Part shown: one piece after another, positions 1-59,645 of the stretch
How the letters are laid out: every line of letters begins with the position of its first letter
Numbering within the stretch: position 1 is the first letter of the stretch
Source of the DNA: Chrysophaeum taylorii
Lineage: Eukaryota > Sar > Pelagophyceae > Pelagomonadales > Pelagomonadaceae
DNA length: 64,000 nucleotides
Direction: 5' to 3'
NCBI GenBank assembly: GCA_029834535.1
Contig: JAQMWT010000314.1
Coordinates: forward strand, 372,001 to 436,000
Translations under genes and position numbers: made by a program
Notes under the pieces: model-generated
What the model was told of the DNA's origin: nothing
The model's database searches: none
The model's input: the letters and a program-made list of their open reading frames with translations, nothing else

Positions 1-2739
1 AAAAGCGTCACACTTAGCTTGTACATCCATAGGGATAGAACTATCAGCGGTGCGGCATATGCGCATACCCGGCAAAGTATGGACAATATCGAACTGGTCC
101 ACGGAGTAGCGATCCTTGAGAGCGTTCTGAAATTCAGTGCGTAGATCATCATCGTCTGATACGATGACAATTTCATCAACAGACAGACCGTAAAGAAGAA
201 AGCGGGCGTGCAAGGTCACCTTTGTGTACAGACATAGGTCCATAAGCTTAATGCCGGCAGGGAGTCGAACGAAGATGTGTGCTCGATGTCGGACAGGACA
301 AGGCGTTGGGGACGTCGGAGTGGTATACGGGGGATTTCTTTTAAGCCGAAATAGCTAAGTTGACACGTATAGCAGCCATCGTCGCCATCGGACCGAAAGT
401 CGAAACAATATCGGCACCAAGGGAAGTTAAGAAGCCACGTAGAACGAGTCGGGCCTTGTGCTTCACGTACTCGCCTGCTGCGTTACTTTTGATCTTGAGA
501 ACCAAGACGGGAGTCGATAGGGCGAGTGTTATTGTCCGGTAGGGACACTAACTTCAAACAACTACAAAGTAAAGCGGACAATATCATGAAGTTCCTTGTC
601 CATGGCCCTGAGATAGGCTTGCCTGTCATCAGGAGACTTGCCTTGCAGGCACTTTGTACTCATCGATCTGGATTTCGGACTCTTGAACTTTGTGCTCATC
701 TTGGCCAACAGTAGACGGAGAGGTCGATGTGTAAAAAATATCGGAATAAGCGTGTGTGGAGTAAGCAGAAGGAGTAGTGGCGTCTTTTTCCAGTTGCCAG
801 TGAAGAACGAGAAGTTGGTTCAGTGCGGAGTACTTCTCAAATGTACTCGGCGGAGACGAGGAGGTACTCCTCGAAATATGTTGGAGGCAAAGAGGTGACA
901 CCAAACTCCGCTGAAGACCAATGGGTGTTCTGACTGTGGTCGATAGAACTGTCGGGAGTCATATACGCCAAGGCACATTGTAGAGGAGGGACGCAAACGG
1001 GAGCACCATAGGCTGCAAACATGTCGACAAAGAAAGGCGGAAGCAGACGGTAAGGAGTAACGTCATTAGTGAGGAAGGCGGACAGAGGAAGGCTTGATGC
1101 ACATTTGGATTGCGAGAAGACACCATCTAGCGAAGGCTAGCGAGACAGGATGTCAGTGCGCAAAGGAAGTACGCGGTGGACAAGCAAGGACATTTTCCCC
1201 TCTGGCATAAAGTAGTCCAGAGGATGCCACCAGAGTCATGCGGGGTGGGGAGGGCAGGAGATTTGAATGTGAGGAATTTGTGTCGGAGATCCCAGCGAAA
1301 GTCAGCGAGCTTGCCACCTGCGGCTTTGTAAGCGCCAACAGTAGAAGCGCGAAGACGAGCCTTTATAGATTGCACGGAAGCAGTTTTGCGTTGGTTGGGG
1401 CGGCGAGGACCTGGTTGGAGTTCAATGTAATCTTCTTGGGCAAATATGTCCTTATAGCAAGGCAAAAGAGAAGGTGACGAGAGAGATTCGTCGGAAAACT
1501 GGGAAGGTGTTCGTGTGGGAATTGGAGAAGGTGTTGAGTTTACGGAGGAAGTAGATATTGGTTCTGGTGCAGAAGCAGGAGAAGGAGCAGTAACTGGAGT
1601 AGGGATTGTGGAGTTCCCCCTCTGAGTTTGATTCTCCCTCGGTAACGCATCATCGAGGGTATCATCTCGGTCGGGTGTTATGTCAAAAGTGACTGAGGAA
1701 GCGAGATTCAGAGCGACATCAGCATGGTGATCCACATTAGGAGAAAGAAGCGGGTTGAGGGCGTTGGCACAACATAGATGCAAATATATTTTACGGGACT
1801 CGCAAGTATCTTTTACGGGACTCTTCATACTCATGGTGTTCATGAGGCTCTAAAAGAAGAAAGCACTCAGCACTGAAGATTTTTATGTAGTCGTGTTCAG
1901 GAGTCGACGGCTGGTTATAGAGAAACTGCAGCGGACTGACCATTGCGTGATGGATGCGTTCAAGGGACGCGCAAGGAAGCCAGTTATAGCTAAAACAGCG
2001 TGAATAACGGCCCAAGGGAAAGGTGGCGTCGAATCCACAATTTTAGAACTCTTGTACTGCACGTTAAAAAGATTGCGAAGATGCGAGCGGCGGCAGATGC
2101 GATGAAACCAATTGCGGCTTCGACTTTATGGTTAAAGACATACAGGTAAGGTGGAAAAGCGACGAGGTTGATACCCTTTTCAGCACGATACGGCGTGGTG
2201 ATATGCTGTGACAGGTATGGTTTGAAAGTGCGCAGCTGAACCTGTATCTGAGTTCGGCAACAGTTACAGAGAAAGTCGAGGGCTTGGCAAAATCGGTAGC
2301 GTTAGTAGTGCGCGCGAAGTACACCAAGGGGAACTCAGAAAAGAAATTCTTTCAACACAATAAGATATGTAAAGCCTAATCATTCTGATCGGAGAGAAAC
2401 ATAGCCGCCACATCACTAGTCCATACTTCACCTGGACGGTGAGTTTGTTCAAAGTTAGGCTTGGTGGGGTCAAAAAAGTGATCACGGCGGTGCTTTTTGT
2501 CGAGTAGAATACTGTCAGGACAAACGTCAGGTATTCTACGTCTGATGCTGCAAATCCAGGGCGAGAGAGTACACCTACATTTTTCGTCGCCACATCGTCT
2601 GGGCAATGGAACGTACGGTGAAACCGATCATCACGTTCTTTGGCGTGCGTTATGATACTCGACAGTGTCGTGCAGGAAACCCTAACCTTACGAGTAGCAG
2701 CCTTGGGTGGAATATGCTTGAGCCGACGCGTATCGAATT

Positions 2740-3893
2740 TTTAATTTGGGCACGGGTCGAGTGAAGGTACGTTAATTTGGTCAGGTTGGTCTTTGGTATC
2801 AGCAGGAGTAAAGGCAAGAGCATCATCTTCGAGCGATACACGAGTAGCTGAGCTGTCGACATCGGTGAGTTTTCGATCCGTGATACGACTCATAAAGACT
2901 GTAGCTCGAGACACCAGGTTACTGTGACCATACGGTTGCGGCAACTCTAGCGTAGTTAATGTTAACTCATGGCAGTTGAGCCGAGTTGCATGATCGTGGT
3001 GAAACTTAGGTGATAGCATCAACAGTTTCATGTCAGTGACAATGCGACACAAGCTGGTGCACAAGAAATCGTACGTGCCAGCAGGTAAAGCGCTACTGAT
3101 AATGTCGCAGCACAGGTCGGCACGAAGAGACAGCAAGAAGGATTCTCGTTCTTTCGTATTTTTTTTAGCTCGAACGAGCTCTGGGCGTGTCGCGTGTCGC
3201 AGTTTGACATCGCGACAGTCAAGAATGATCATGATAGAGTAACCCCGTACAGTAGGCAGTCGGGTTCACATGGATTGAATCTTAGAACCAGTGGGACGGT
3301 CACTATTCCTCAGGTAGCCAATGTAGCGAGCATGCGAAAGGTAGTAGTCTTTCAAGGCAAAATGCGTGTCTTCAAAGGCAAGCGTGTTGTTAGAAGTGTT
3401 ATACGAAAGACATTAAGGAAGAGCTAAATCATATTTGCCCAGCAACTTGTTAGATAATTGCGGGGCGAATGTTAGCTGTCAAGGTGAGGTGGGGTTACGC
3501 TTGTACCAGCCATAGGTACCCTTTAAAAGGTTCAAGATAGATAACTTTTGTCCGCAGAGTCGTCGTGTGAGGTAAAAGAGTACGCTTCACCATATGGCTG
3601 TCTATGGTTGTCTTGTACTTAGTTGACCTATTAACGACAAGAAAATACCATCACCGTGTTTTACTTCCTGTTAAGAAAAGGGATATTATTGTGCTTGGAG
3701 GTAGATTTGGTAAGGAATAATCTGTGGGAAGGTTGGTTAGTTTCGAGAATCGTGATATAATCAGGCACGGATTTTGGAAGATCAGGCGAAAGCCTAGAAA
3801 AGATTTTACACGGGATGGTGAAAGTCTTATGGCGAATTGGATCGGCAGAATCTTTGAGGGGTGACGTAGAGTCACGCAGATAACCTATGTGAT
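2740..3893 (-). mobile_element. C5-methyltransferase-like domain of copy C (C-terminal half)
   Basis: This part of fossil copy C matches the C-terminal end of cytosine-C5 DNA methyltransferases. It has a TRPELVRA segment, which corresponds to motif IX, followed about 20 residues later by an ALPAGT segment, which corresponds to the NAvPp box of motif X. The same two blocks occur in copies A and B at the same place, between protease and integrase. The family assignment is by eye. Whether the domain was ever active cannot be judged from this copy. Confidence 0.6.
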
Positions 3894-3898
3894 GGTAT
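3894..3898. repeat. Target-site duplication GGTAT, left
   Basis: GGTAT directly precedes the first LTR and recurs directly after the last LTR at 23,856-23,860. Five bases is the usual Copia duplication length. It shows that the block 3,899-23,855 entered copy C as one insertion or grew from one. Confidence 0.8.
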
Positions 3899-4308
3899 TC
3901 CAGAGCGCTACACTATAATGTGTACGACACTGGAACTCCTTACTCCTTTCACACCTTTTTCTACTAGAGGGTTTTCTCTCCGCAATACGGCTTTCCCTCT
4001 TTCCTTCCTTACCCTTCCGCAATTATGATTTCCAGATTATGAAGTATTAGATCTGCAGTTCACTTCCAACAAGGAGTAGGCCTCCAGGTGCGTACCGTCA
4101 GGTATGGGGTTTTCTGTTTAATTAATGGAGGCTTCATTCTTCATTCCTCATTGTCAGCGTAAACGCTTCTATGGGACCTAATGTCCTTAAGGAGTTAGGG
4201 CCTAAATCCCTACCTTGTGTAGTAGCATGTGGCAAGCGGAATGGTCTGTACACGCCTAAGACTGCACGCAGTCTCTACCATATACCCGGCGAGGGTCAAA
4301 TCTCTCCA
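3899..4308 (+). repeat. LTR 1 (410 bp)
   Basis: It begins TCCAGAGCGCTACAC and ends AAATCTCTCCA. The ends form a short imperfect inverted repeat rather than the common TG...CA. It is nearly identical to LTR 3, with about 11 substitutions and one 7-bp length difference counted by eye. A primer-binding site follows immediately. Confidence 0.88.
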
Positions 4309-4322
4309 GGTTATGAGCCCAG
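4309..4322 (+). promoter_or_regulatory. Primer-binding site, initiator tRNA-Met anticodon arm
   Basis: GGTTATGAGCCCAG directly abuts LTR 1. Its complement, CTGGGCTCATAACC, is the anticodon stem-loop of initiator tRNA-Met, with CAU anticodon and GGG/CCC stem, rather than a tRNA 3' end. Drosophila copia is known to prime from an internally cut initiator tRNA-Met in this way. The identification rests on this complementarity. Confidence 0.7.
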
Positions 4323-4791
4323 ATGCGTAGGTGTGTCAGCCCAACTGTGTTGTGCGTATAATGGAGTGATCAGTTTACGCCTGATTACGAGTACAACGCG
4401 ACAATGTGTTCGGCGGTGGTCTAGTGTACATATTTGTCGTGTGACGGTATGTGCCCACCAGTTAATTTGGTTTGTGACCGAGTTGGGTCGGCCACTGGTC
4501 ATGTGCACTCGCATAACCAATAAAATTAAAAATTTTCCTACACAAGCCGCGGAAACTTGTACGGGTTTTTTCCTTCTATTCCCCAACAAAAGACTGACTG
4601 CTCGAGAACTAATCCATTCTTCAGTCTCAAATCATCATGTTTAAATGGCATATTGATTTGTTTGGTCTTGTAAATAAGCCCACGCTTAAAATAGCGAACT
4701 GTACATATGCCTCCGCATGTTATAAACCCTTCATTCGAACATGTCAAATTGTTTTATCACTCCTTTAACCTACCTTTAACAGGTCATAATC
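4323..4791 (+). other. Leader between primer-binding site and Gag of body A
   Basis: This is about 470 bp of untranslated leader. I see no domain and no second repeat. The first Gag-like ATG follows CATAATC at 4,792. Confidence 0.5.
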
Positions 4792-6700
4792 ATGTCAAAA
4801 CCTAAGCCGATATCCACTACGGATATCTATAAGCAGGAACAAATTCTCGTTGATAAACTCAACAATGGTTTGCGTTTCCAAGACAATTCAACTAAGGTCA
4901 GTTTGCAACTCGAAATGCTTCGCAGGCACATGACAAGTCCATACGCGGACGCGTTGTTCCTCTACGACTCGTATGACGCGTACACGCGAAATGCCCCAGA
5001 ATATAACCAACTTCTCGAACACGAAGTTGATATCATTTTCTCTCAATGGAAAGCCGAGAAAATCAACGAACTACATCTACCTAACGAAGATGCCTTGCCT
5101 GACTATCTCAGGACATGGCACATTAATCATTCACATCAACATCAACTATCAGTCGATGCACGTAATGATCTCGAACGGCTTTTCTATCAAGAGTCGTATA
5201 ATCTTGTTCGACCCGAATTAAACGAGGATGTTAAGCGTGTCCTCACTCGTTTAAATACCCGACACCCTAAATCAATTGCGTATGCTTCGTCTCTAACCAA
5301 TAAATCCTTCTCAGGTCTTTCTAATGCCGACTGGATTAAACACTGCGAAACCTACGCGGGTTTTTTGTACACGTTTTTCAACTTGGAATCTCAGGATCGC
5401 CCTGCCCTCGCTATGTGGCCCCAGTTGAAGAAAATTTACTCGTTTACAGCGCACCCCAATAAAACGCGTGCTTTGATGCTGTTATCCTATCACTATTATG
5501 AAACTGTATCCTGGACGGATGTCACTGAACTTAAATCTCAATTCAATCGAATGTCATTAAATGTTAATTGGTATGCTCATGTATTTGTCGAACAACTTCT
5601 TGCTTTCTAAACTCAGGCAAGTCAATTGAACACAGACGAAGCATCAATTCAATTTAATGATTCTGTTATCGCACTTAAAGCTCATGAAGAGCGTTACCGT
5701 CTTTACGCAAATCCATCTTACCACGAGCGCTACTCTCAGTCACTATTAGAATGGTGCAAACTTTACGAAACACGCTCGGGGAACAACTCGACTCGCGATC
5801 CTGAAGTTTTAGAGCTAGTTGATCCCAATAATGTTCGCCCGTTATTGGAGTTCTTGTTAAAGATCTACAATGAGACAAAATTCTCATCTAACCGACGCTT
5901 GGATAAACCTGCATCATGGATTCCATATATCCCTGGTACTACCGCTACCAAGCCACCTAAAGTATTACTGATGGACACCATTCATCAGTCCCACGATTCT
6001 CTAAACAACGCTTATTCATTGTTAGCTACCGTCGCTGGACAGTCTGGCTTTAATGCTCGTAAGCTTCGTAACGCAAAAGATAAAGCGTCGACAGTTTCAC
6101 CTCGAGACACATCCTACTATCGCCCACCTTCTAATTATAATGTCAAAGGTACCAGTTTTGATCGTCCTGTCTACTCACAATCTACTAATCGCAACTCACG
6201 CTCCAACATGTCGTTAATGGATCGAGCTACTTACCAAGTAGACCGTCTTCGCCATCTGTTTAGTAAATTACAGGAAGCGAATCCCAATCCCTCTACCGAC
6301 TCTAAAATAGTACAAGAAGAAATGAAGAGCTTACTAAGTACCCTTTGGACAACTGCTTCTCAAGCTTCTACACAGTCTCTCGACCCAGAAGAAGCCACCC
6401 CAGTTCAACTATACCTATCACGAGCTGATACAATGTCCAACACCATCTCGAACCTTCTAGAGACAGATAAAGAGTCTCACATCGTAGAAGAAAAGGATCA
6501 AGTTGAAATTTCTGCTCCCGCAGCGTCCCCCAGTGATGCGGAGCAGAGGGGGACTGCTGAAACAGAAAAGATGTTTCATACTGTTCTATCTATCAAAGAT
6601 GATGAAATCGATAATATTCCTCAACCGCTACTGCAGCATATAAATGCTAAAGCACAGAATGCTATCGAGTGTCGTCAAGCTCGGGAAACTTCTTTGCACT
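4792..6700 (+). mobile_element. Gag-like region, body A
   Basis: This is the first coding part after the leader. The N-terminal portion (about 270 residues) is helical and lacks known catalytic motifs. It contains a DALFLYDSYDAYTR segment that matches DAFLEYDSYEAYTR in body B, and a conserved FxNLES...PALAxWP region. The second portion ends in a low-complexity, acidic stretch. No CCHC zinc knuckle was seen. It is part of a fossil. The Gag assignment comes from position and from the paired relative in body B, not from a recognised capsid fold. Confidence 0.65.
6527..6553 (+). repeat. 27-bp internal direct repeat, copy 1
   Basis: It runs from CCCCC to GGGGGA and is repeated exactly at 10,716-10,742. 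Both copies encode PSDAEQRG in the forward frame. The 3' half (CAGAGGGGGA) resembles the polypurine tract beside the LTRs. Confidence 0.8.
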
Positions 6701-6779
6701 CCGAGCTTCCCAATAATCAACAAAACGAAGAAAACGAGGATGGTACAGATCCCCCTGTGTTGCTTCCGAAATTAAATAA

Positions 6780-7535
6780 TGGTTTTACACTTGTCGTGGT
6801 ACCTTCCGAACAAACGCAAAGTTTCATGACTCAGTATGTGTTTGGTCAAAGTTCTACACATGCTTGTTATGCAACAATGCTTAAACTGTATAATGAATAC
6901 AACTTACCATTATTGACTACGCCTGGGTATGCTGATACGTGCGCTTCTGAACATGTGGTTAACTTTAAAAGTTACACTCACTACATATCGTTAAACTGCC
7001 CGAATCCTTGTCACCCGCCATCCAGACGGCTACAGACACCCGAAGTATCACTCATGCCATGATAATAAGAACAGTCACCCCTGCTCTTCCAAAGCATCCT
7101 AACGTTGGATATGTAGAGCTAGATGTTGCTCTTTTCCTACCCAAACAAAATCAACATAACGATCCTGATTTGCACATCATCAGCATGACTCAATGGGGAG
7201 AAGACAAACTTGGTATACACCTCTATGGGGTTGAGTTTAAAGGACAATCATCTATCCAGAGCAAGATTGACGACAACGTCAAGATTACTTTGCTTAGATT
7301 CAACAATTCATTACCTACTCTCCCAATTTATTCGTTACAGCAAGCTAAAGCTCGAAAAATGGAACTACGCTCTTTACAGTTCAGATTGAGTGCTTTTAAC
7401 GAACAACGTGAGATGCTTAAACTATACTCCAAACTTCTCGAACGTGTAATTTACGTCCCGTGGTTTAAAACTATTTTGGAGTCCATGCATTCACAGTTGC
7501 CTTATGTTCGCAAACATTTCTCACCTCCTGTATGA
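6780..7535 (+). mobile_element. Retropepsin-like region, body A
   Basis: An aspartic-protease-like ADTxASEH segment lies near 6,935-6,960. It is followed by a beta-rich stretch and a VGYVELDVALFLP block that matches VGYVKIDFVLCL in body B, the usual layout of a Copia protease. It sits between Gag and the methyltransferase-like domain. The similarity is by eye and this is part of a fossil. Confidence 0.5.
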
Positions 7536-7579
7536 CGCAAGTTTAACACACGCCTGCTCCATACTGCAACAACCTCTTC

Positions 7580-9400
7580 TAGTTCACGAGTACCTACTGT
7601 AACTCTACTTTGCTCCGGGATGTCCACTCCTGCATTCTTGGCTTGTGCTTCCAATGACTTGCGAATCAACATTAACGTTAAAGTTCTTGTTGAAAGCGAT
7701 GAAAATCTTACGCATATGCTACGAAGACGGTTTGGTAATTCCATCGAAGTGTTTCCGTCACTACCAAAGTTCCTTACCTACCTACATCGAGCATCGGATG
7801 CTGAACGTGCAAGATATTACTCTGATATAGTGGAATTGACTTCCCCATGTACCAATCGTAACATAATCAATGGGAAATCTACATCAACTTTCGAGCGAGA
7901 TATGGGCGACTCTTTATTTCCAAGTGCTCTAAATGTACTTGAGCTTTTAAAGCCCCTTGTTCTTTTTATGGAAATGAGACCACCACACTCTGCATCGTAT
8001 GAAGATCATATACGAGTTGCTAACCTGATCTTCTCCACAATGCATTATACAGTGGATATGTGCGATCTCTTTCCATGTTACTGCTGTGGAGATTATCAAG
8101 CTAGAGAAAGATGGATCCTCGTTGCTCGCAAATATAATACCGGTCCATTAGATTTGCTCTCTTGGCCCAATAAGCGAGTTACTTCCTTCCTGGACATTGC
8201 GGATCATGTTAACTCCATAAGTCGCAAGTTAATTGTCGACGAACCCTGGACACAGGTCTTCTCGGATGTACCATTCGTTTCCATGCCCAAAACTTACAGC
8301 AGCTTCAGTCGCACAGGATCCGTTCGCCTAACGGTTACCGAGCTAGAGACACCAACGATGCTGTTCCTCCGTTTGCATTCATATAAAACAATCGAACACC
8401 CAAGTCAAGACGAAATGGAGGACATTTCTAACTTTCGCCTAGGATTCTTGACGAATTCAAGAAAGCCCCTCATGTGTATGACTTCACCCATTGAACTTAA
8501 GGCCTTTGTTATCCTCTATAACATTATGGGACGCTTGTTCCCAAATTCTACTACACTACCTGTGTCTTTTCGTATTACAACTATCGAATCTAACCAACCA
8601 TCTCACAGGTTATTTTTAAAGAAATCCTCTACTTCCTCCATTATCTACATCACTGGTGGAAGACACACAGGTGGAGACATCACAGTTTCTAACTCCTCCT
8701 CTAAATACCAGGCACACATAAATGCATTTGGGGAAACCTGCACCTTGCAAACACACGACACAGGAATTGATAAGACTGCTTCTCTCAATCATGTTACAGG
8801 TTTTCTTTGGTTATGTCAAGCTTATCATCATCATAATGAAACTCAAGACACCCGTCGTCTCTTGCAAACACTGGTCTCCCACACTTCACCTGTGCTTCAT
8901 GATTCTTTCTTTTTTTATCCCAAGACACATCATCTTGAATTTATCGACAGAGTCTTTGCTTTAAGTGACATGCATCTGTCTCAAAGCAGGTACCTTGGCT
9001 TCATCACATCTAGTGATAGAAAGATGGGCGCCAAACTTCATTCTATTCACACACCAACTCCCGCTATTCGTGGATTTGCGAACATGATCCTTTACGATCC
9101 ACGGCTTGATCGCATTCGACATTATTCAACTCGCGAACTGGCACGCGCCAATAACTTCACAGCGCACCAAATTAATTTTCTTCTGTCTTTGTCCCCGGAC
9201 CTTTGCTGTGACATAATTGCTAATGCTATTCCAGCTGGAACCTATCACGTAATTTATACACATTTGTGTCAGATTGTCTATGATTTGCGTAAATTAACGT
9301 TATCACCATCTTTTGACCCTGATCATGCTTCTCTAACCAAAAACTATAGGTCAACTTTTTTCACTAACATATTTCCAACTGACACATCCTTAATATTAAA
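7580..9400 (+). mobile_element. C5 DNA methyltransferase-like domain, body A
   Basis: Blocks occur in the order of cytosine-C5 methyltransferases. First comes a CSGMSTPAF loop (motif I, SAM binding) followed by VLVESDE. Next is a Pro-Cys segment, TSPCTNR, at the motif IV position. Then come a LVLFMEMRPPH block (motif VI-like) and an ARERWILVARK block (motif VIII-like). Last are STRELARAN and ANAIPAGT (motifs IX and X). The domain replaces the short spacer normally found between Copia protease and integrase. It belongs to a fossil element. A role in methylating or silencing DNA would be inference only. Confidence 0.65.
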
Positions 9401-9559
9401 CCAGAGTTCTATCACAATGTTATACATTTCTAATAAAGCCTTCCAATGTTGTGACAACATCTCTTCCAACCACGAACTTCCACTGTTTCATCTCGATTCA
9501 GTAGCCCACGTCTTTTTATCTAACATCTCATCCGCAGATGCACCATCTCCTACAAAAAT

Positions 9560-11130
9560 GAAACATATTCCTCTCATAACTCCAAGACAGTTACATGAAA
9601 AACATGCTTCTTTTGACAGAAAAGTACATGCCAGAGGCACTCTCGCTTTTCGAGATGCTCAGCGACGTGCCACAAATTTTCACAATATTCACCATTCTAG
9701 TGATTCTCAGGCTATAAAAGCTGTTCAGGTCATTGCCAGTCCGGGACATCATCCTTCAGATGTGCCCTACCGTAAGTTTTGTGTGGATTGTACCTTACAT
9801 AAAAACGTTTTCCTCATCCACATCATCTTACCAAGCAACCTTCATTTGAAAAAGTTTTTCAACCTGGTGAAGCCTGGGCATGTGATGGTGGTTACGTATC
9901 TGTCCTATCTGAATGGGGCTCCTTTCGCCACATTTTAGTTTTCAAATGTCTCATCTCTAAATTTTTGTTGGTGTACTTTTGTCGTACTACTAATGCTAGT
10001 GAATTTTGTAATGCCCTCGAGTTTGTTCGCAATTTTTGCTCCACCTATGTTCATGTACAATTAAAACAAATTTATTGTGACTCTTTTAAACCCTATTTAT
10101 CTCAACACGTTACCACTCCCTTCCGTGTTGAACATGGCATTAATATGTCTGCTTTCCCTCCCTACTTACATGTGTTTAATCATGAAGTAGAAGCTGCTGT
10201 TGGTCATATAGCAACTGCTGCGTCTACACGACTCCGGCGTATGCTTAATGTATCCTATAAAGGTCACCCCCTAACAGATCCGGCACCACATTACCCGTGG
10301 GCTGTTATACATGCCATTCAATCGTACAATCTCCTTCCTAATGTCTCTCTCGAACGTATTTATAATAAAGTCCTAAGCCCCCAACAAGTTTTGTTGGACC
10401 AATGTAATGTTCCCCAACAAGATTACCTCAAACCTTTTGGTTCTGTTTGTTATTTGCATCTGGAATCTAATGAATTTCACAAATATGAACCTCGATGTCG
10501 TCCCTATATCTACTTATGTGGTGCTAATGTTATAAACCCTTTAGTCACACCCCATGTTAACCACTTAGCTGATGTTGTCCTCAATCCTGAGAACGGCCAA
10601 GTCCGTGTTTCTTCTAAACTTACCTTTCCTCATCTCATTTCTAAATCTCCTCCCGATTACGAACAACATCCCCCACCCGCACCTTCACCCGAAATACCCT
10701 TTTCTGTTCAAAGCACCCCCAGTGATGCGGAGCAGAGGGGGAATGCTATGTCTAACGACATTGAACACGAGAGGGGGACTCCTTCATCCCTCGCACACGC
10801 TCCTACTCCCGTTCCCGCATGTGCTCCCGCTGTTTCTGCACCCGCTGCTTCTGTCGCTACACCTCCGGCATCTGAAGTGTCCTCCAACACTTTACCTATT
10901 TTACCATCCTATCGGCCCCTATATTCCCAAGATGTCCTTCGTCTCACCCGCGGTCCTAATCACCCTCAGCCTCGTCGCAATGCTAATCTCAAGGCTGTCC
11001 TCATTCGTATTGCTTCGCCAGCCGTTGCCGCTTATAAACAAGCTGGTGGTACGCTTGCTGACTTGAAGTATGGCCTCTCCAAGCAGTATACAACTTTCTG
11101 CGACCCCACCCTCCACTCCCTCTTCCGAGA
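9560..11130 (+). mobile_element. Integrase region, body A
   Basis: An HHCC zinc-binding segment lies near 9,680-9,800 (FHNIHHS followed by CVDC). The catalytic core spans about 9,960-10,400 and starts with LVYFCRTTNASEF, with a YCDSFKPYLSQH block around the second acidic residue. The C-terminal region holds a CGANVINPLVTPHVNHLADVV segment shared with copy C, followed by a Pro/Ala-rich linker. It is part of a fossil element. Confidence 0.75.
10716..10742 (+). repeat. 27-bp internal direct repeat, copy 2
   Basis: This is an exact copy of 6,527-6,553, 4.19 kb downstream in the integrase C-terminal linker, encoding PSDAEQRG again. Another AGAGGGGGAC tract lies 25 bp further on. Confidence 0.8.
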
Positions 11131-11139
11131 CGGTACCGC

Positions 11140-11984
11140 CAATGCTTAACTATTTTCGCCAACTTTCACCTGATCATCAATCCTCTTTTTAAAACGTGCT
11201 AGTCCAGGTTGGCTATCCCTCCGCTATAATCGATGCCTTTTCAGATAATACATTATCGGAAGGTGTAACACCAGCACCAGCCGAAACCCCATCCGCCGAG
11301 TCCACGCCAGACACATCTAATGACAACATGGTTGAATCTCTACGCCAGTTAAAAGAAGAGATTCAATCGCTATCCATATTCTCACGTCTCACTAACAGTG
11401 AACAGCAATTGATGGCAAAAGATCAACAGCTATCGGTTACACTAAAGCACTTAACCCAGGTACAAGAAGCTTACGACGATCTACATACTCAAGTAACTGA
11501 AAACATCAAGCATGTCGCGCTTTTGGATAACATACTATCAAGCCTACAGATGAATCAAGATAACATTGTACCAACCTTAGCTGTCTTTGTCCACATAATT
11601 TCACGATCGCTTATTTCGTCTATTGGACAGTTTCCTCCAAATACCTATAATGAATCACAGCAAGCTCTAATCGACGATGCAGCGCATAATGTACATGCAG
11701 CTATGTCTAATGCACAGGATCGTGTTATCCCGGCGCTTGATCTGCATACACTAACACCGGACGCAGCTATGTCCTTCCTCTCGTCTGTTATGGCACCCCT
11801 GGTCACCTTAAGTGATGCTGTGACTACGAACAACACTGTTAATGACCAATCCTCCGAAGATCACGATTCTTCCTGTCCAGAGTTAAAGGAACTGGAAGAT
11901 AATAGCGAGGATGAATTGGACCACACATCTGATGTTGTGGATGCCGCTTCTTTACGCAATATCACGACACGCCCGACCTCTTAA
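11140..11984 (+). mobile_element. Third ORF region, body A (C-terminal part)
   Basis: This matches the C-terminal part of the ORF at 21,339-23,318. Shared blocks include QVGYPSAIIDAFSD, SRSLISSIGQFPPNT and LDHTSDVVDA. A heptad-like coiled coil (about 11,390-11,520) separates them. The tail is very acidic. Its function is unknown. It lies where some Copia lineages carry an extra ORF between pol and the 3' LTR. Confidence 0.7.
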
Positions 11985-12110
11985 ATTAATCTGTCGTGTT
12001 ACCTCCCCATGTCTTCTTGTTGTTTGTTCACCTGTTCGCAGCTCCTATGTACATTACCCAAGTTCGCCCTCAAGAACGCCTGAAATGCACACACCCTTCT
12101 TTCACACGTT

Positions 12111-12519
12111 TAGGGGGTCCAGAGAGCTACACTATTGTGTGTACGACACTGGAACTTCTCACTCCGTTCACACCTATCTCCACAAGAGGGTTTTCTCTCA
12201 GTAATACGGCTTTCCCTCTTTCCTTCCTTACCCCTTCCGCCCTTATATCTCAGATTATGAAGAATTAGATCTGCAGTTCACTTCCAACAAGGAGTAGACC
12301 TCCAGGTGCGTACCGTCAGGTATGGAGTTGTCTGTTTAATTAATGGAGGCTTCATTCCTCATTGTCAGTGTGAACGCTTCTATGGGACCTAATGTCCTTA
12401 AGAAGTTAGGGCCTATATCCCTACCGTGTGTAGTAACATGTGGCAAGCGGAATGGTCTGTACACGCCTAAGACTGCACGCAGTCTCTACCATGTACCCGG
12501 AGAGGGTCAAATCTCTCCA
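12111..12519 (+). repeat. LTR 2 (12,118-12,519) with preceding polypurine tract
   Basis: The tract TAGGGGG (12,111-12,117) precedes the 402-bp LTR, which has the same termini as LTR 1. It differs from LTR 1 and LTR 3 at roughly 30-40 positions, so it is not the partner of either. No primer-binding site follows it. Confidence 0.85.
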
Positions 12520-12524
12520 TCCTA

Positions 12525-12720
12525 AAGTCAGTGCTCCTTCTCGTCACATCAACTCACGAGAATTTCGCATTCGCGACTACCAAGCTAAATCGATCATTAG
12601 ACCTCTCTGGTGTCTTACTCTCTACCAGGTCGCTGATCATTTTTCGAAGCTCCTTCAACGCAACTTATTTCATAAGCTCAAAAACGCCTACGGCGTTCAT
12701 TCCACTTCATCTTCCCCACC
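12525..12720 (+). mobile_element. RNase H C-terminus of a different Copia family
   Basis: A frame starting at SAPSRHINSREFRIRDYQ and running through a VADHFSKLLQRNLFHKLKNAYG segment matches the end of Copia RNase H (the ADxxTK-type ending). It is unlike the RNase H at 20,640-21,240, so it comes from another family. It directly abuts LTR 2. This is a fossil fragment. Confidence 0.55.
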
Positions 12721-13559
12721 ATCCCATCAAGTCACTCTTTCAGCTCCTCTTCCACCTCAAAGAAATCTGCTGCCTATTACCCTTATCCGTCCGTTGAGAA
12801 CGTGATCTCTTCCTTACCCTTCTTCTTCCTTTTTACACAGTCAAATAGTCCTCTTAAGCTCATAATCATGGTCTAGCGCGTCCCGAGGTATGTAGCACTA
12901 TACACTTTACCTTTCTCGTGTAGTTCTAGATGCCGCCTGTCGTGTTCGGAGGATATAGGGAACATACATTTTCATTCCCCGAATTAATACTTCCAGACGT
13001 TCATGATGAGACGGGATGGTTTCCCAGGTGACTTACCACTGCTTGCTAAATGCTCTGCAGATTATGGGCCCAGGCGGGTCCTTGAGAAATCATGTGTCAA
13101 CATGCACGTAACCTATGGGTTTTGGACTGTTACCGCGCCGGTCCAGCCTCGACATGTGACACGCTTGTCAATATAACGCCATTATCATTGGGCTGTATAT
13201 AGCATATTTTGCACACGTGATCGTGTAACCTAGTGTGCGCCTGTTCATAGTATCGTATTGTCATGTCAATGTTGATGTGTGTGTAAGTTGGCTAACCTGT
13301 ACTCTTGCACACATGCTATGGAATATTTTGGGTACGTCCACTCGTACATTCCATGGCAATGCACTTAACAAGCTCCTTGAGAGCACCAAAACTAACCAGC
13401 TGCCTGAGTGACTACGCTTAGCGACACTACTCTGGACTCACAGCTTGCACAGTCGTCAAATAGACATTTTTTTTCATCGAAAACGATGAGTGTACATAGA
13501 CACCGATAGACAGACCCCCTTAGAATGTCTAGACAGTGTGAACTGCGTGACTGAACCCA
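12721..13559. other. Spacer between LTR 2 and body B
   Basis: No domain, RNA gene or LTR copy is visible in this 840-bp stretch. It may be leader sequence of body B or part of the foreign fragment before it. Confidence 0.4.
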
Positions 13560-15400
13560 CAGGTTCCCCGTCAACTGCTATGGCAGAACACGCAGCACGA
13601 GCCGCACCCAAGGCGATCACAGGTGCGGATATATTGAAGCTCGAAGCTCCTGTAGTTGAGTTAGTTAACGAAGGAAATCGATTTCAGCTTCAGACCCGCA
13701 AGGTATCCTTGCAAATCAAGCACATTAAGCAATTATTACGGTCCAGTCATGCCGATGCCTTCCTCGAGTACGACTCGTACGAAGCATACACTCGGTCATG
13801 CAAGGACTACGAGATCCTCCGGAATCAAATTCGCGATCGCGTTTTCCTGGAATGGAAGACCGATAGGGCTGCCGATCTCCGTTTAGCTGTTGATGAATTG
13901 CCCCCTGAGTATCAGGAATGGCATTTCACCAACGAAGCTTTCCCCAACTTGCCTGATGCCGAAGTAGCTCAGCTAGCTACTGTCTGTTCCGACTATGAAG
14001 TCAGGGCATTACGTCCTGAAATCAATGCTCGTTTCTTAGAAGAGGAACGAGTCTTAAATCGCGCGCACCGAAAGCATTAGCTTTCGACACCCGTGTTCGT
14101 GCCCCTGTTACTATGTTTTCGTTAACTGCTGCTGATTGGCACGCTTATCAGAATACGTATGCTACATTCTTGCATAATTATTTCAATCTTGAAAGTGTTG
14201 GAAAACCAGCACTTTCGGCCTGGCCCGCCATCAAAGAGGTATATAACAAAAGTTATTTACCCAACAAGGCTCGAGCCATTATGCTCATTGCCTTTAGTCA
14301 CTACGAGTCTGTTACGACTACTGATGTGTCATATTTGAAACAGCAGTTTAACTCTGTTGTTTATAATCCTAACTGGTATGTCCATGTATTTATCGAAGCT
14401 GTCCTAGCATTTAGGCAAATCTCTAACTAACTAACTTAACTAACTTCAGACCTCTCCCGAGCATGGGAGCCAGGCCGGACCAGCAGGAGCCAGTCCGGAA
14501 TCACGGGCCTGTAGACGAGGAGCGCCGAAAGGTCGGTCGGCGGAGAGTGACCATCAAGCTCGTCGCCATGCGACGAGGAGACCGCGATGTGACTGACAAC
14601 CAACTCGTCGATAACCTTCCGTCTTCGCCCCCCGGCCATACCAAAATATAGGCAAATCTCTTACCAACTTAACCAGGAAGAGACTGACCTTCAATTCGAC
14701 TTTGGTACTCTTTGTAGAAAAATTTATGAAGAGATACATCGGCATTATGCCGATAATACCAGCAACAATCGTTACGATCGTGGTTGGGTAGATTGGTGTT
14801 ATATGTATGAAACCCGATCTTCATCTCGGCCTGTGCCAGAAGCTGAACGATTGTGTCACCCTACCAACCCTAGCTATATTTTAGAATGCGCATTAGACTT
14901 ATATATTGTAGTATCAAATGGTCGAACAAAAGACGCTTAGAACGCCCTGTTTCTTGGCAACCCTATGTCGAAGGTTTATCATCTCAACCAAAGCCAAAGT
15001 TACTACTTACAAACACGCTGGATTTAGCAGGCAAAAGTCTGACTCAAACTGCCAACACACTCGCCTTCATTACTGCGTCTCAACCTGGTACATCTATCCT
15101 CGACCGAAAAGTCGTTAAACTACGTGGAGCCACAACATCATACTGTTGCTACTGCTCCCAACTCAAAGGCAACTCCTCCTACTACAGACACCAAGAATGC
15201 CCCCAACACACAGGGTAATCCCTCCAATATTGTGCCTAACTTCTTTACTGCTTCCGCCATCTCGGCTTTACCACCAGCGTTACTATCGTCGCTATCTTCA
15301 CAGGTCCAATCTGCCCTCAACCAACCACCACAAGCCGAAACCAAAAGGGATGCCGATCATACTTCGCTATCGTCATTTGATGAGAAGTACGGCATGGCTG
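13560..15400 (+). mobile_element. Gag-like region, body B
   Basis: It starts near the ATG at 13,580 and contains KVSLQIKHIKQLL and DAFLEYDSYEAYTR, which align to body A at about 40-45% identity. It ends in a Pro/Thr-rich, then acidic stretch. A SINE is inserted at 14,425-14,648 with a 13-bp duplication. It is part of a broken fossil, and codons are more GC-rich than in body A. Confidence 0.65.
14425..14648 (-). mobile_element. SINE copy 1
   Basis: This is a 224-bp copy of a short interspersed repeat in minus orientation, flanked by TAGGCAAATCTCT at 14,412-14,424 and 14,649-14,661. Read on the minus strand it shares GGTTGTCAGTC, GCATGGCGAC and a TTAGTTAG-type tail with the copy at 53,101-53,334. 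The duplication shows it retrotransposed into body B. I could not identify a pol III A/B box pair with confidence. Confidence 0.82.
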
Positions 15401-15409
15401 ATGAGGCTG

Positions 15410-16090
15410 ACGAACCATCACCACCTGTTCAACCGATTATCATTCCAACTCATCTGTTATTGCTGGAGAACTTCTTCACTGCCAGCCTCTCCACTACTTG
15501 CCCGCATTCGGAAAATGCCTTCCTCGCCAACTACATGAAGGTAAACAGTGTCCCTCAACATTGTTCCTTTCTATATTTTGGCTCTTGTGCTACCATCTCA
15601 TTGATGTCCACGTACGATTTTGCAATACCAAATCATATTATTCCACTGGACTCCAAATACGCGCCGATTGTTATTCAAGCTGCCACTGGACAACAACGTG
15701 CCTCACACTTGATGTTAACGCGTAACATAGTTGTTCCCCTACCAGATCATCCGCAAGTTGGCTATGTTAAGATCGACTTCGTTTTATGTCTTCAGCCAGT
15801 GCACGACCGACATCTCGCTATCCTGAGCATGCTCGAGTGGAACCAGACGAACCTGACCACTGTGTTCAATGATCGATCTGAGCCAAAGCTCAGCGCTGTC
15901 ACGAGCCGCATAGACAAAGACGTACGTATTCCCATACACTACATAGCAGCGAATTTACCTGCTCTCCCTTGTCTCACCTACAACATCGCTCGCGACAAAC
16001 AACTCGAACTTCGTTCCCTCGCATTTCCTCTCAAGCGATACCATGAAAACAGGGATCTACTGGCATATTACAATTACCTACTCAAATGAG
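15410..16090 (+). mobile_element. Retropepsin-like region, body B
   Basis: It aligns to the protease-like part of body A: an aspartic-protease-type ATIS segment with IQAATGQQ and a VGYVKIDFVLCL block follow the acidic linker. It lies just before the methyltransferase-like domain. This is a fossil part assigned by position and pattern. Confidence 0.45.
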
Positions 16091-16219
16091 TTTTACCAGA
16101 TCGCCCGTGGATTCGTCCTTTGGTTCTCAATATTCGGAAACAGAACAAGTTTGTCCAGCAAAGCACACCGCCATTAACCTGAATACTCTCGCGCCCAGTG
16201 TTTCTCTCACAAGAGCCCA

Positions 16220-18000
16220 ATCTCCGCAAACCCTTTGTCATGTTACTTTGTTCTGGTTTGTCAACTCCAGCGTCCCTGTCTCAAGCCACTAATGACTTAG
16301 GCTTAAATATCAATGTAAAAGTTGTTGTTGAGTCTGATGATACGCTTGTTCGTATGTTAAGCCACCGTTTCCCTACAGTATTATTGTTTGAATCTCTCCC
16401 CGCCTTTATTAACCATCTTCACCTAATTTCACCAGAGGAAAGGCGCAAATTCTATTGTGATATAATTGAGATGACTCCTCCCTGCACAACAGGAATCTAC
16501 TAAAGCAGCATAAGACCGAAGACTTACACAGCCTGCTAGACGATTCTCTTTTCGACAGCATGCTGTCTGTCATCAAGCTACTCCAGCCCTTGGTACTACT
16601 GGCTGAGATGACGCCTCCGCACAAGTACTGTCATCAAGACCACATAACTTTGGCCAATCTCATCCATACGACACTCGATTACTGTGTCGATGTTGTTGAT
16701 AGGTTCCCGACCTACCTCTGTGGCGACTACCTATCTAGAGAAAGATGGATATGCGTTGCACGCAGGTATTCTACTGGACCAATTGACATATTGTCATGGC
16801 CTATCCTCCATCCACGCCCCTTCCTAAAGATCGTGGATGATCTACAATCCATTCCCAAGCGCCTTTGGTTACCCAAACACGTATCCAAAGACTGGATCCG
16901 GGTGTTCCCCGATCCTCCATATATCCCCGTTCCTAAAACGTTTGCACCTTACTCTCGCACAGGTTCTGTTCAGCTTACTATGGCTGACCTTGAATCCCTC
17001 AATATGTTACTGCTTCGCCTTCACTCACAACAGGCTCACGAGCAACGTACTCACTCTGTTCAATCCGAGTGTACTTATCATCAGCTGTGCTTTAAACGCT
17101 CCTCCATGGAGCCGCTACCTCATGCAACCTATTCTATACACGTCAAGGTTTTTACAATCCTCTATAACTTGTTTGCCAGATTACACACTAACTCACCCAC
17201 TCCTGTGTCCTATTACATAACCGTTTTCGAAACTGACCAACCGTCACACAGGCTACTACTTACAACCTCATCAACATCACACAACGCCCACTTCTTAACT
17301 GGTGGTCACCATTCTGATGGCAACCTCACCATAGAGAACGCCACCACCAAATATCATGCTTCCATTTACGCGTTTGGAAGCACGTATACGTTCACTGCTT
17401 CCGACACCCCCCGCGACCGGGACAGGTCCATATATTTGGAGCCGTTTATGGGTTACTTGTGGATAGTCCAAGCCCTCCCTCAAGTTGGCTCCGCTGCCAC
17501 CTATTGCACCGCCATACAAAAGCTCTTGTCCAGATGCTCTCTTGTGATGCCTTGCTGCCTTACCTACAAGGCCACCGACAACTCTTTCGACTACAAGGAT
17601 TCTCATTTTGCTCTGGAAGATCACCACTTATCTCATAGTCGCTATATAGGGTACCTTCGTGGAAGTGACCGCAAACTCGGCTCTAAACTCCACTCCATGC
17701 TTGCTCCATTGCCCACTGTCCGAGGGTATGCCAACATTATTTTACTCGACCCTCGCAACGGGAAATTACGCTACCCCACTCGACCGGAGTTGATTCGTGC
17801 TAACAACCACACCAAACAACAGGAGTCTTTCCTCTTGTCTCTTCGCCACGACCTTTGCTGTGACATGCTCAGCAATGCTCTGCCTGCCGGTACGTACAGC
17901 ACACTGTACCAGCACCTTTCGCTCCTCGTTGTCGATATTAAATCCCTTATGTTGGACCCTACCTTCCAACATACTGCTGCCGTGACGAAGAAATCCTAAT
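16220..18000 (+). mobile_element. C5 DNA methyltransferase-like domain, body B
   Basis: This is the clearest copy. It shows CSGLSTPASL followed by VVVESDD (motif I and the acidic residue that would bind the ribose of SAM). It then has EMTPPCTTG with Pro-Cys at the motif IV position, LVLLAEMTPPH (motif VI-like) and SRERWICVARR (motif VIII-like). The end has LRYPTRPELIRAN and SNALPAGT (motifs IX and X). About 600 residues separate protease and integrase, roughly the size of a complete methyltransferase. It lies in a fossil element. Family assignment by motif order is fairly strong, activity unknown. Confidence 0.68.
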
Positions 18001-18279
18001 GTATCCAATTTTATGACCATTGACCAGGCCTCCACCACGTGCAGCACAGATACCTTGTCTTTGGCACAATCTTTTATGATGTATATTTCCAGCAACTGCT
18101 TGACCGAAATGTCGTTAAACTATATATCATCGTCCTACGAAGATATTCTCGCTACTCGTGATGATGAGGATGCACCTCCAAGTGACCCTACTGCGCACCA
18201 GGATGACGACGCACCGCCTCCTCCTGCCTTGGACACCGAACTCAAGTTCGATGTTCGGCGCAAACGTCATATCCCCGCT

Positions 18280-18900
18280 CATCCCATTCCTCGCAAGTCC
18301 TTCGCACACGGATCTGCCGAATACCTCAACGCCAAAGAACGTGCCAATCGCTTCCACCGGGTGCACCACTGCCCCGACAACGTCGCTGCCAAGGCCCCCA
18401 ACGTACTGGCTCGCCCTGGCTTCTCTGCCTCAGACCTACCGTATCGCGACTTATGCACCGTCTGCATCGCACACAACAAGCGCCACCCGCACAAGCACTT
18501 CAATGCGACCAAGCCCTCTTTTGAGCAAACTCACAAAGCCGGCGAAGTCTGGGCGTGGGACGGCGGCTATGTGACCATCCCATCCGAATGGGAGGCTTCT
18601 CACATATTATCGTCTTCAAGGAACTCATTTCGAAATTTCTCTTGGTGTACTTTACACGCACCACCAACGCCACGGAGTTCACTCAAGCTCTGGATTTCGT
18701 GTATGACTTTTGTCGTACACAACTCAACGTGCACATGCGCACCCTCTACTCCGATGCCTTCAAGCCCTACTCTAGCCAGCACATTACCTCCCCGTACAGC
18801 GTCGATAAGGGCATTCAGCTCATCGCCTTCCCGCCATTCATGCACCACTCTAACTTTGAAGTTGAGTCCGCCATCGGTTTCATGTTGCTCATGGCATCCA
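18280..18900 (+). mobile_element. Integrase region, body B
   Basis: The zinc-binding HHCC segment (FHRVHH then CTVC) lies at about 18,350-18,470. The core begins with GEVWAWDGGYV and LVYFTRTTNATEF, followed by LYSDAFKPYSSQH. Order and motifs match Copia integrase. It is part of a fossil element. Confidence 0.72.
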
Positions 18901-19439
18901 CTGGATGGCTATACCTCCAGAGGGGGAATTTACACAAACTCTTCATCATCATGTTCACCAAGCGCTATTCCAGTCTTCTTCTGGTATGTGTCATAGTAGC
19001 CTTAGCCATCCGTCGACGGATGCCACTCCTGTTCATCTCCTCGACGACCTCAGCCTCGCGGACCTTCACCTTCCTCGCGCTCTTGTTCATCTCATTTCTG
19101 AACACGCTCAAGCTTTTCGAGTTCCTCCCGCTCAATATGCTTATGCTTTGCTAACGCCCCATTCTATTTTGGATCATAACGTTGCTTCTTATGGTGCCTC
19201 CGAGCCTCACCTCTCCGTGATTGAAGACTACATCACTGTACAGTCTCATTACATTGATGCACACCATGGAGATGACCCTCTACTAGTTATTCAACTTGTC
19301 GAAGATCCAGATCCCGCTCATACTAACGATATTGTTGCTTCTTACACGATCATCCACCTTACCAATGCTCAAGATCCCAGCACTGTTGGTCCGGACGAAT
19401 ATAAAATTCAATCCAAAGATATATCAAGATTGATGAATA

Positions 19440-21240
19440 TGAGTTGACCTGCCTCAAAGGTCTTTCTGACGCTGATCGTAAGGCTTATATCTCCGCTATT
19501 TCCAAGGAGATTTTTGACAATGTCAAATTTGGCTGCTTTAAACTCTCGTTGCCTATGGTCAACTCCAAGCCCATTGATACCCGACTGGTATTACGCATAA
19601 AAACCAATGCTGCCGGTGAGTTCATCAAACATAAAGCAAGATTGGTCCTACGAGGATTCTTAGCTTCTCTGGGCACCGACTTTTTTAACACATTTAGCCC
19701 AATGGCGCATCTCACCGGTATCCGTAGTGTTCTGGCGCTTGCAGCCCACCTACGACTTCCCGTCTACCACATAGACGTTCCTAATGCTTTTGTTCAAGCT
19801 CCCATAGACTCTCATGTCTACGTTAAACTGCCACAAGGTATTCACCTAGTCGATCCTGAAGATGCAAAAATATCAAGGACGACGTCTTCCAAAACTACTT
19901 AAATCTCTTTATGGATTACGACAGAGTCCTGCTCTTTGGAACCAAACCATAAATGGTTCCTTCGATATGCTAGGAAAAAAACGCTTTCGAACAGATACAT
20001 GCATCTATGCTAAAGTCCAAGCCGATGCTACGTTTTTACTTTGTACGCTATCAGTGGATGATGTTGTTATCATCTGTACATCGGAAAGCCTACGTCGTGA
20101 ATTCCAACAAGCCATGAAGAAGGAATACTCGGTTGAAAACTTTGAAGAAGTTCATACTCTCTTAGGTATGCGCATAACTCGCACTACCGATGGTTCCATC
20201 TCACTTGACTGCCAAGCTAAAATTGATGCATTGTTTGAAGAGTATCCCATCTTAATGCAGTTACGTCCCACATTAACTCCTATGTCCCCTTCAACTACGT
20301 ATAAAACTGGAGAGCCTTCTTCTGATATGGACAAGTTCATCCAACACACCTTTTCCACCTTACTTGGCAAGCTTACTTTTGTACAGTTGGCCTGTCGCCC
20401 TGATTTATCACAAAGCCTCAGTCGCTGTTCCCGAGGAATGCATAATCCAGCATATTTGCATGCCCAAGTATTAACAGGAACTCCTCGCTATTTGCGCAAG
20501 CCTGAAAATCGCAATCTTCGACTATGGTACTACTCCGGTTCTTCCGCTCTAATGGACCATCTTAGACTTCTCATCGGCAATCGTACCGACATGGCAACCA
20601 TGTTGGATTACACTAAAGAACAAGTGAATTCAGGTAATTTCGATCCACTGGTCGCGTTCGTCGATGCTGATAATGCACCCTCTTATGAGCAAGATCGCAA
20701 ATCTACAACTAACCAATGCCATCTTTTTATTCGGTTCCCTCATCACTTGGAAGTCCGAACTACAGCCTGTAACAGCTACTTCCACGCATGAAAGTGAACT
20801 TATTGCCCTTAATATGTGTGCTGATGACGTGGTCTGGTTACGTAAATTGTTAATGGAAATGGCGTTTGCTATAAACCCGCAATACTATCTTCGCCAACCT
20901 CCAGGGAAAGATTTGTTATTAGATTATGATGCTCATGACAACCCTCTCCCATCAGACATGTCATTCATGCGCAACAGTCCTATACTTGGAGACTCTGCTT
21001 CTGCTATCCATCTGTCAAATAATCCTGACAGTGCGACTAAAGCCAAAGCTATTAGCACACGCTGGTTTCGTATTCGTGACTATGTGCACCTAAGACGTAT
21101 TCGCTTACAACATGTTTCTTTCACTCAGAATATCGCTGATGGTAAATACTAAACCCTTTGGTGCTCCGCTTTTCACTAGATTTCGCACGTTACTTGGTTT
21201 ACAACAGCCCGTAGCCCAGCAAGATGCTTAATCATTACCC
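19440..21240 (+). mobile_element. Reverse transcriptase and RNase H of the composite
   Basis: Copia RT blocks are visible: RLVLRIKTNAAGEFIKHKAR, a DVPNAFVQAPIDS block, SLYGLRQSPALWNQ, the VDD catalytic box (SVDDVVI), and LGMRITRT. RNase H follows with FVDADNAPSYEQDRKST, SELIALNMCADDVVWLRKLL and a FRIRDYVHLRRI end. Base composition here is closer to body A than to the preceding part of body B, which suggests a mosaic. It is part of a fossil element. Confidence 0.82.
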
Positions 21241-21338
21241 TTCACTATGTCCGCAATGACATTAAACTAACCCTCATGGAAAACGGTATCGTGGCTCGCT
21301 AAAAAATGTGAAATGCGAAATGTGAGGATCTCCATAAA

Positions 21339-23318: not shown

Positions 23319-23442
23319 CCTTAACTGTTATGTTACCTTCTCCTTTATCTTATTGTTGTTTGTTTAATTTAGTCGCTGTTCTCATGTATCATACACAAGC
23401 TCCGCACTCAAGAACGTCTGGAATGCATAAAGCCTTTCACAC

Positions 23443-23855
23443 GTTGAGGGGGTCCAGAGCGCTACACTATAATGTGTACGACACTGGAACTCCTTACTCC
23501 TTTCACACCTTTTTCTACTAGAGGGTTTTCTCTCCACAATACGGATTTCCCTCTTTCCTTCCTTACCCTTCCGCAATTAGGATTTCCGGATTATGAAGTA
23601 TTAGACCTGCAGTTCACTTCCAACAAGGAGTAGGCCTCCAGGTGCGTACCGTCAGGTATGAGGTTTTCTGTTTAATTTATGGAGGCTTCATTCCTCATTG
23701 TCAGTGTAAACGCTTCTATGGGACCTAATGTCCTTAAGGAGTTAGGGCCTAAATCCCTACCTTGTGTAGTAGCATGTGGCAAGCGGAATGGTCTGTACAC
23801 GCCTAAGACTGCACGCAGTCTCTACCATGTACCCGGAGAGGGTCAAATCTCTCCA
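23443..23855 (+). repeat. LTR 3 (23,453-23,855) with polypurine tract
   Basis: GTTGAGGGGG at 23,443-23,452 is the polypurine tract. The LTR is 403 bp and pairs with LTR 1 at about 97% identity by eye. Confidence 0.88.
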
Positions 23856-23860
23856 GGTAT
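23856..23860. repeat. Target-site duplication GGTAT, right
   Basis: This matches 3,894-3,898 and closes the composite block. Confidence 0.8.
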
Positions 23861-24470: not shown

Positions 24471-24474
24471 GAGC

Positions 24475-59461: not shown

Positions 59462-59645
59462 GGTGATGATGACGATAATCTGTCTCAACCCGCCATCACT
59501 GTATCGTCGGCGGCGGCGTCCTAGGACCCGTCCATACTCTCTCGTTAACGCGAGACTAGGGGGTCAAAGATATGTAGCCGTTCGCCACAACGTCACAGAA
59601 AATCCGAACTATTTTGGAAGCCGTCGCCTTCGCGTTCGGTGTCAG
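59462..59645. promoter_or_regulatory. 184-bp divergent promoter region
   Basis: It lies between the start codons of the minus-strand channel gene and the plus-strand receiver protein. Both genes must initiate here. I see no TATA box or clear symmetric site. Confidence 0.55.

Follow-up and report, generated by a model that had tools for sequence, protein, structure and literature searches.

A C5-cytosine methyltransferase-derived domain conserved in a Copia retrotransposon lineage of Chrysophaeum taylorii

Introduction

Cytosine methylation is the usual host weapon against transposons, and elements that bear a methylating enzyme of their own, of which few cases have been found in print, reverse this picture. 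A locus of the alga Chrysophaeum taylorii raises the question of whether a Copia retrotransposon can be such an element and, if so, what the enzyme would do for it. In the window, a stretch of 64,000 nucleotides (assembly GCA_029834535.1, contig JAQMWT010000314.1, positions 372,001 to 436,000), the initial annotation, made from the letters alone, placed a cytosine-C5 DNA methyltransferase-like domain between the protease and the integrase of a Copia element and saw the same layout in two further copies. We report that a real C5-methyltransferase-derived domain is conserved in this Copia lineage and that, as far as sequence can tell, its function on DNA is likely, if unproven.

Results

The window holds a single insertion unit, LTR-A-LTR-B-LTR, at 3899-23855, with a 5-base GGTAT duplication flanking both sides; among the elements considered here, the combination of LTRs and short target-site duplication expected of Copia was established for this unit alone. 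In a blastn self-comparison of the window, 3899-4315 and 23453-23861 were 95.7% identical, and 3899-4308 and the internal LTR at 12118-12519 were 91% identical. Since the LTRs are 91-96% identical although the methyltransferases of copies A and B share only 45.5% identity (over the longer piece of B), recombination between families sharing LTRs is suggested. The reverse transcriptase (RT) frame of copy A has been lost by a deletion between the integrase region and the remnant of the 3' open reading frame (ORF). Copy C is no intact third copy: its methyltransferase is halved by the LTR-A-LTR-B-LTR insertion (Table 1).

Table 1. Coordinates of retrotransposon features in the window
Feature	Position	Strand	Basis or remark
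Target-site duplication GGTAT	left copy 3894-3898, right copy 23856-23860		short 5-base repeat
5' LTR of the insertion unit LTR-A-LTR-B-LTR	3899-4308	+	blastn self-comparison
Copy A, gag-like region	4780-7062	+	protease-like DTCAS in C-terminal part, by eye; no Pfam match
Copy A, second part of protease-like region, ending in the conserved UGA	6969-7535	+	by eye
Copy A, in-frame UGA between protease-like and methyltransferase frames	7533-7535	+	
Copy A, open frame with methyltransferase and start of integrase zinc-binding region	7536-9938	+	zinc-binding region by eye
Copy A, C5-cytosine methyltransferase-like domain, motif I to motif X	7596-9245	+	
Copy A, motif I block TVTLLCSGMSTPAF	7596-7637		
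Copy A, VLVESD	7683-7700		
Copy A, motif IV, TSPCT	7839-7853	+	catalytic-type Cys, codon 7848-7850
Copy A, motif VI, FMEMRPP	7965-7985	+	Glu of ENV position kept, Asn not
Copy A, QARERW	8097-8114		
Copy A, lengthy variable region separating motifs VIII and IX	8115-9125	+	place of the target recognition domain, named by analogy
Copy A, STRELARAN	9126-9152		
Copy A, NAIPAGTY	9222-9245		
Copy A, integrase core region, separated by a frame break from the methyltransferase frame	9803-11149	+	Pfam, below cut-off
Copy A, remnant of the element's 3' ORF	11193-11984	+	
Internal LTR separating the A and B bodies	12118-12519	+	blastn self-comparison
Copy B, gag/protease-like frame	15043-16089	+	by eye; no Pfam match
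Copy B, in-frame UGA upstream of motif I	16180-16182	+	
Copy B, C5-methyltransferase-like domain, one frame break near 16488	16225-17966	+	tblastn
Copy B, reverse transcriptase RVT_2 (Copia type), two frames	19405-20791	+	Pfam
3' ORF, two frames, between RT region and 3' LTR	21312-23318	+	matches no Pfam family
3' LTR of the insertion unit	23453-23855	+	
Copy C, methyltransferase N-terminal half, degenerate	23861-24496	-	
Copy C, C-terminal half of the methyltransferase, separated by the insertion	2852-3893	-	

In Copia elements the integrase lies upstream of the RT, which is of the RVT_2 type. Pfam found RVT_2 in copy B (E 6.7e-21 for 19405-19899 and E 1e-16 for 19850-20788) and in a third family, F3 (loci L041-L069, elsewhere in the genome; E 5.4e-39); the window's copy A has none. 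Comparison of the genome tables, that of RTs holding at least 150 rows, showed that at least 15 copies of A and at least 29 of B are followed on their own strand, within 5 kb, by an RVT_2 match. In F3, a single frame of 1,150 residues runs from the last part of the methyltransferase through a weak rve match (residues 214-308, E 0.0034) to RVT_2 (residues 884-1131). This order of integrase and RT fits Copia, but rve scores under its cut-off in both F3 and copy A. In the placement of the methyltransferase between protease and integrase, the protease side rests on DTCAS in A and LIDGGAS upstream of the F3 methyltransferase, both read by eye, with Pfam finding neither gag nor protease in the frames given for A and B, and the integrase side on rve (E 0.0029) and SH3_retrovirus (E 1.5e-5) matches in copy A, both under the curated cut-off, on frames of copy B that are integrase-like by eye and match no Pfam family, and on the integrase region that follows the methyltransferase in F3. 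An integrase beside the methyltransferase of locus L058 was taken as belonging to another element and left out.

All six motifs listed in the initial annotation were recovered in order in the open frame of copy A, and the same domain was recovered in body B; the motif names in Table 1 are those of C5-methyltransferases, to which we take these blocks to correspond. At 30 of 38 A/B loci, two of them the window's own copies, at least four of the six motif patterns occurred in order, and two or three occurred at the other eight, a count in which the motif I pattern was too strict for family B. A core alignment of 25 rows was built from selected stop-free copies of A, B and F3, the transcript P0001 (described below) and a host Dnmt2-like protein. 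In it no row departs from the Pro-Cys of motif IV or from one Arg in the motif VIII segment, and conservation at the Glu of motif VI reaches at least 90%. The F3 rows have the canonical PCQ and ENV in 11 of 11 cases; the A/B rows have PCT and EMT or EMR and so lack the full PCQ and ENV pair. Having lost Gln from PCQ and Asn from ENV, the A/B domains could have an altered or RNA-directed activity.

Profile searches detected the domain with a strength that varied among the families. The sole Pfam match of the copy A frame was DNA_methylase (PF00145), at 14.7 bits, below the cut-off of 22; the Pfam search of the frames given for copy B returned no PF00145 match, and an NCBIfam search with A and B matched nothing. 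Two F3 frames exceeded the PF00145 cut-off, with 33.4 and 34.2 bits. A profile of A, B and P0001 scored all three F3 domains tested (E 6.8e-6 to 1.1e-3) higher than any of 5,000 shuffled decoys, and in the reverse test the F3 profile scored 10 of 11 B domains, but none of 7 A domains, higher than the best decoy. In profile-profile comparison, A1 aligned with A3 over 456 columns at a low reported probability (1.6%, E 0.031) and matched the host Dnmt2-like protein weakly; the decoy tests were preferred to these comparisons. A protein database search with A found a single relative: P0001, a transcript from MMETSP that aligns with 56% of the query at 40% identity; searches with F3 and with L070, a Gypsy-type element described below, found nothing at E of 1 or less, within length limits that excluded much shorter enzymes. 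Searches of PDB sequences with A, alone and as a profile, gave irrelevant matches only, and those with F3 and L070 gave weak C5-methyltransferase or DNMT2 matches (E 0.16-0.28) together with chance matches. In viral contigs, 28 and 27 pattern matches included no relative.

An AF2 model of the core reached a pLDDT of 70.1 and a pTM of 0.71; F3 and one host Dnmt2-like row were part of its alignment and may have biased it. A full-length AF2 model of copy A, built from nine rows, was poor (pLDDT 35) and was discarded. When the core model was compared with the PDB, 49 of the 50 matches listed were C5-cytosine methyltransferases by title, mostly DNA methyltransferases and among them DNMT1, M.HhaI, M.HaeIII, DNMT2 and DNMT5. 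DNMT2, a tRNA enzyme, tops the Foldseek list, and no more than about 2 Z units separate the fold scores of DNMT1, 2, 3 and 5 from one another and from those of bacterial enzymes. By predicted structure, then, the domain has a C5-methyltransferase fold. Profile searches with no C5-methyltransferase hit, or with a clear better one to another fold, would have spoken against the initial annotation; for the copy A frame they gave DNA_methylase, weakly, as the only Pfam match, and the structure comparison gave this list of folds, so its reading is supported.

The domain recurs across the lineage, as the initial annotation had proposed. A genome search gave at least 76 matches for A and at least 88 for B, lower bounds from a search that scored 68 and 84 candidates, respectively; at least 25 of the A matches, the window's own included, are stop-free from query residue 5 or earlier to residue 655. 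The PF00145 table for the genome holds about 56 rows of F3 type and 63 that match the profile start only, as grouped by profile range, with motifs checked in 28 loci of the F3 group and in one (L070) of the start-only group. The ratio dN/dS was 0.08 for A, 0.20 for B and 0.12 for F3, indicating purifying selection among the unbroken-frame copies sampled (7 of 8 A, 11 of 30 B and 3 of 28 F3 loci). In family A it fell to 0.03-0.06 over the part from motif I to motif VIII, with its minimum around motif VI, and peaked in the middle of the stretch between motifs VIII and IX.

These data bear on whether the segment could be a spacer of other origin whose likeness to methyltransferase motifs is accidental. 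The weak Pfam score of A, the poor full-length model and the failure of the F3 profile to find A would fit such a spacer; conservation at corresponding positions in A, B, P0001 and F3, the detection of F3 above 5,000 decoys with the A+B profile, the fold match and purifying selection argue against it. We regard a chance origin as very improbable and descent of the domain from a C5-methyltransferase as nearly certain.

At the same place ahead of the domain, all 7 A loci with motif I and 21 of the 22 such B loci have an in-frame UGA, a count that omits 9 of the 38 loci in which the motif I pattern was missing. It stands 24 or 21 codons ahead of LLCSG, and the adjacent codons in B are variable. 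The F3 frames of L050 and L055 pass this position without a stop. Folding found no covarying RNA structure 3' of the UGA (z -1.5, -0.4 and 0.0), with pseudoknots outside the model. We infer a programmed bypass of the UGA in A and B.

Base composition was considered as a sign of self-methylation. The observed/expected ratio of CpG had family means of 0.90-1.06, compared to 1.30 in the gene region, a slight depletion, and transitions between copies were only 1.08-1.34 times as frequent at CpG sites as elsewhere. With so slight an effect, CpG decay was not retained as a sign of self-methylation.

A second, unrelated element type in the same genome appears to carry a methyltransferase as well. L070 (G000:C235:20000-25000; frames 3-2333 and 2240-4917) is of Gypsy type and matches PF00145 ahead of RVT_1, at 23.5 bits against the cut-off of 22 and over profile positions 2-52 only. 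By eye, the frame continues with SPPC and SSRVRLLVSSH, and a protease-like stretch precedes it; the later frames match RVT_1 (E 1.2e-13), RT_RNaseH (E 1.6e-27) and Integrase_H2C2 (E 1.1e-13), in Gypsy order. The Gypsy case consists of this one element and some 60 similar rows of the PF00145 table.

The host has cytosine methyltransferase genes of its own. The DNMT5-like protein L040 matches PF00145 (E 7.9e-18) and PDB entry 7r76 (E 3e-143), whose sequence is the same as that of 7r77, titled DNMT5; the DNMT2-like protein L039 also belongs to the PF00145 family. Both have PF00145 in common with the element domains, but the host frames read contain no retrotransposon part, and neither protein was among the matches listed for the A+B and F3 profiles. 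Elsewhere in the window, a 717-residue frame at 59163-61313 carries response-regulator receiver domains in two stretches (Pfam), and an IspD gene at 43597-44373 (Pfam) bears a plastid-type leader, which suggests an algal host with a red-derived plastid.

Discussion

The explanation that we consider probable is that an ancestor of this Copia lineage captured a C5-cytosine methyltransferase gene, which became a fixed part of the Pol polyprotein, placed after the protease-like region and ahead of the integrase, and that the element uses it to methylate its own cDNA. The lineage would then have diverged into at least three families, A and B in the window and F3 elsewhere. The enzyme part, methyltransferase-integrase-RT, would be produced via a leaky UGA or a similar bypass, and the methyltransferase would be packaged in the particle alongside RT and integrase. 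There it could methylate the double-stranded cDNA before or at integration, so that a new copy would bear the host mark from the start, a mark that the host DNMT5-like enzyme could keep. Methylation of the element's own cDNA is the simplest mechanism, and its benefit may be that the new copy resembles host DNA or escapes a nuclease or a deaminase. The slight CpG deficit, the modest excess of CpG transitions between copies and the altered motifs of A/B speak against it. That the domain is active on DNA in the element's own cycle is, on present sequence evidence, favored by a small degree.

It is conceivable that the domain, though related to C5-methyltransferases, has come to act on RNA (that of the element or of the host, or a primer tRNA) or to work as a nucleic-acid-binding part, in place of methylating DNA. 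The departures from PCQ and ENV in A and B and the weak CpG depletion would fit such a role, and RNA has been proposed as a substrate of the LINE-borne enzyme (PMC5890265). However, F3 keeps both PCQ and ENV, and the PDB fold matches listed are mostly DNA methyltransferases, even with DNMT2 at the top of the Foldseek list; we consider this reading rather unlikely. The enzyme could also have been kept for disturbing host silencing or remodelling the host methylome, with no role on the element's own cDNA, an idea with which the high copy number and the presence of a DNMT5-like enzyme in the host are compatible. The fixed place of the methyltransferase in the polyprotein, before the integrase, argues instead for a role inside the particle, and we think an exclusively host-directed function distinctly improbable. 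The families themselves offer a natural pair for testing whether the element methylates its own cDNA, since PCQ and ENV are canonical in F3 and altered in A/B.

L070 widens the question. There is a slight balance in favor of the view that two unrelated LTR retrotransposon superfamilies within one 70.8-Mb genome, Copia (in three diverged families) and Gypsy, each took up a C5-cytosine methyltransferase and fixed it at the same position, downstream of the protease region and ahead of whichever catalytic domain follows. If true, such convergence would mean that carrying the enzyme is a strong and general advantage in this host, for example because unmethylated cDNA is recognized and destroyed.

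The present case sets the methyltransferase within Copia elements that give at least 76 and at least 88 domain matches (A and B), in a compact genome with a DNMT5-like enzyme; this would make it testable whether an element methylates its own cDNA and to what gain. For the conserved UGA, a parallel exists in Tca2, a Copia-group element. In Tca2 of Candida albicans, the UGA that must be bypassed lies between the gag and pol frames, with a potential pseudoknot 3' of it (PMC2194720), whereas folding gave no such support in the window families, pseudoknots being outside the model. The part of PMC2194720 available to us mentions no methyltransferase, while the window families carry one.

The precedents named in the initial annotation, from Symbiodinium and Klebsormidium, proved to be real carriers but not Copia elements: PMC5890265 describes LINE and DIRS carriers in Symbiodinium and a Gypsy carrier of a DNMT in Klebsormidium, and gives Symbiodinium Copia elements as having no DNMT domain. 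The Gypsy and DIRS carriers recur in PMC6338049. One sentence of PMC12344493, with the 2018 paper as its reference, puts DNMT3 members in 'LTR Copia and DIRS' elements; we take the mention of Copia as a slip, although unshown data are possible. The literature consulted in part, PMC9998398 included and subscription papers and preprints excluded, yielded no other Copia carrier. As to activity, both tested domains of SymbioDIRS-Dnmt3 methylated CG in yeast, and the LINE and Gypsy domains showed no activity in the same 2018 test, which its authors called inconclusive; self-methylation of cDNA was proposed there for DIRS elements (PMC5890265). SymbioDIRS-Dnmt3 and SymbioLINE-Dnmt resemble the window element in being high-copy retrotransposons with a C5-methyltransferase, but the former belongs to the DIRS class, with a tyrosine recombinase, and the latter is a LINE, whereas the window element is of Copia type. 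KnitGypsy-Dnmt3 of Klebsormidium nitens likewise has its C5-methyltransferase within the Pol of an LTR retrotransposon, with purifying selection reported (de Mendoza et al. 2018, PMC5890265). It combines a Gypsy element with a Dnmt3 domain, whereas the window element is of Copia type (RVT_2) with a methyltransferase unplaced as to DNMT class, and in element type it is L070 of this genome that forms the closer parallel to KnitGypsy-Dnmt3.
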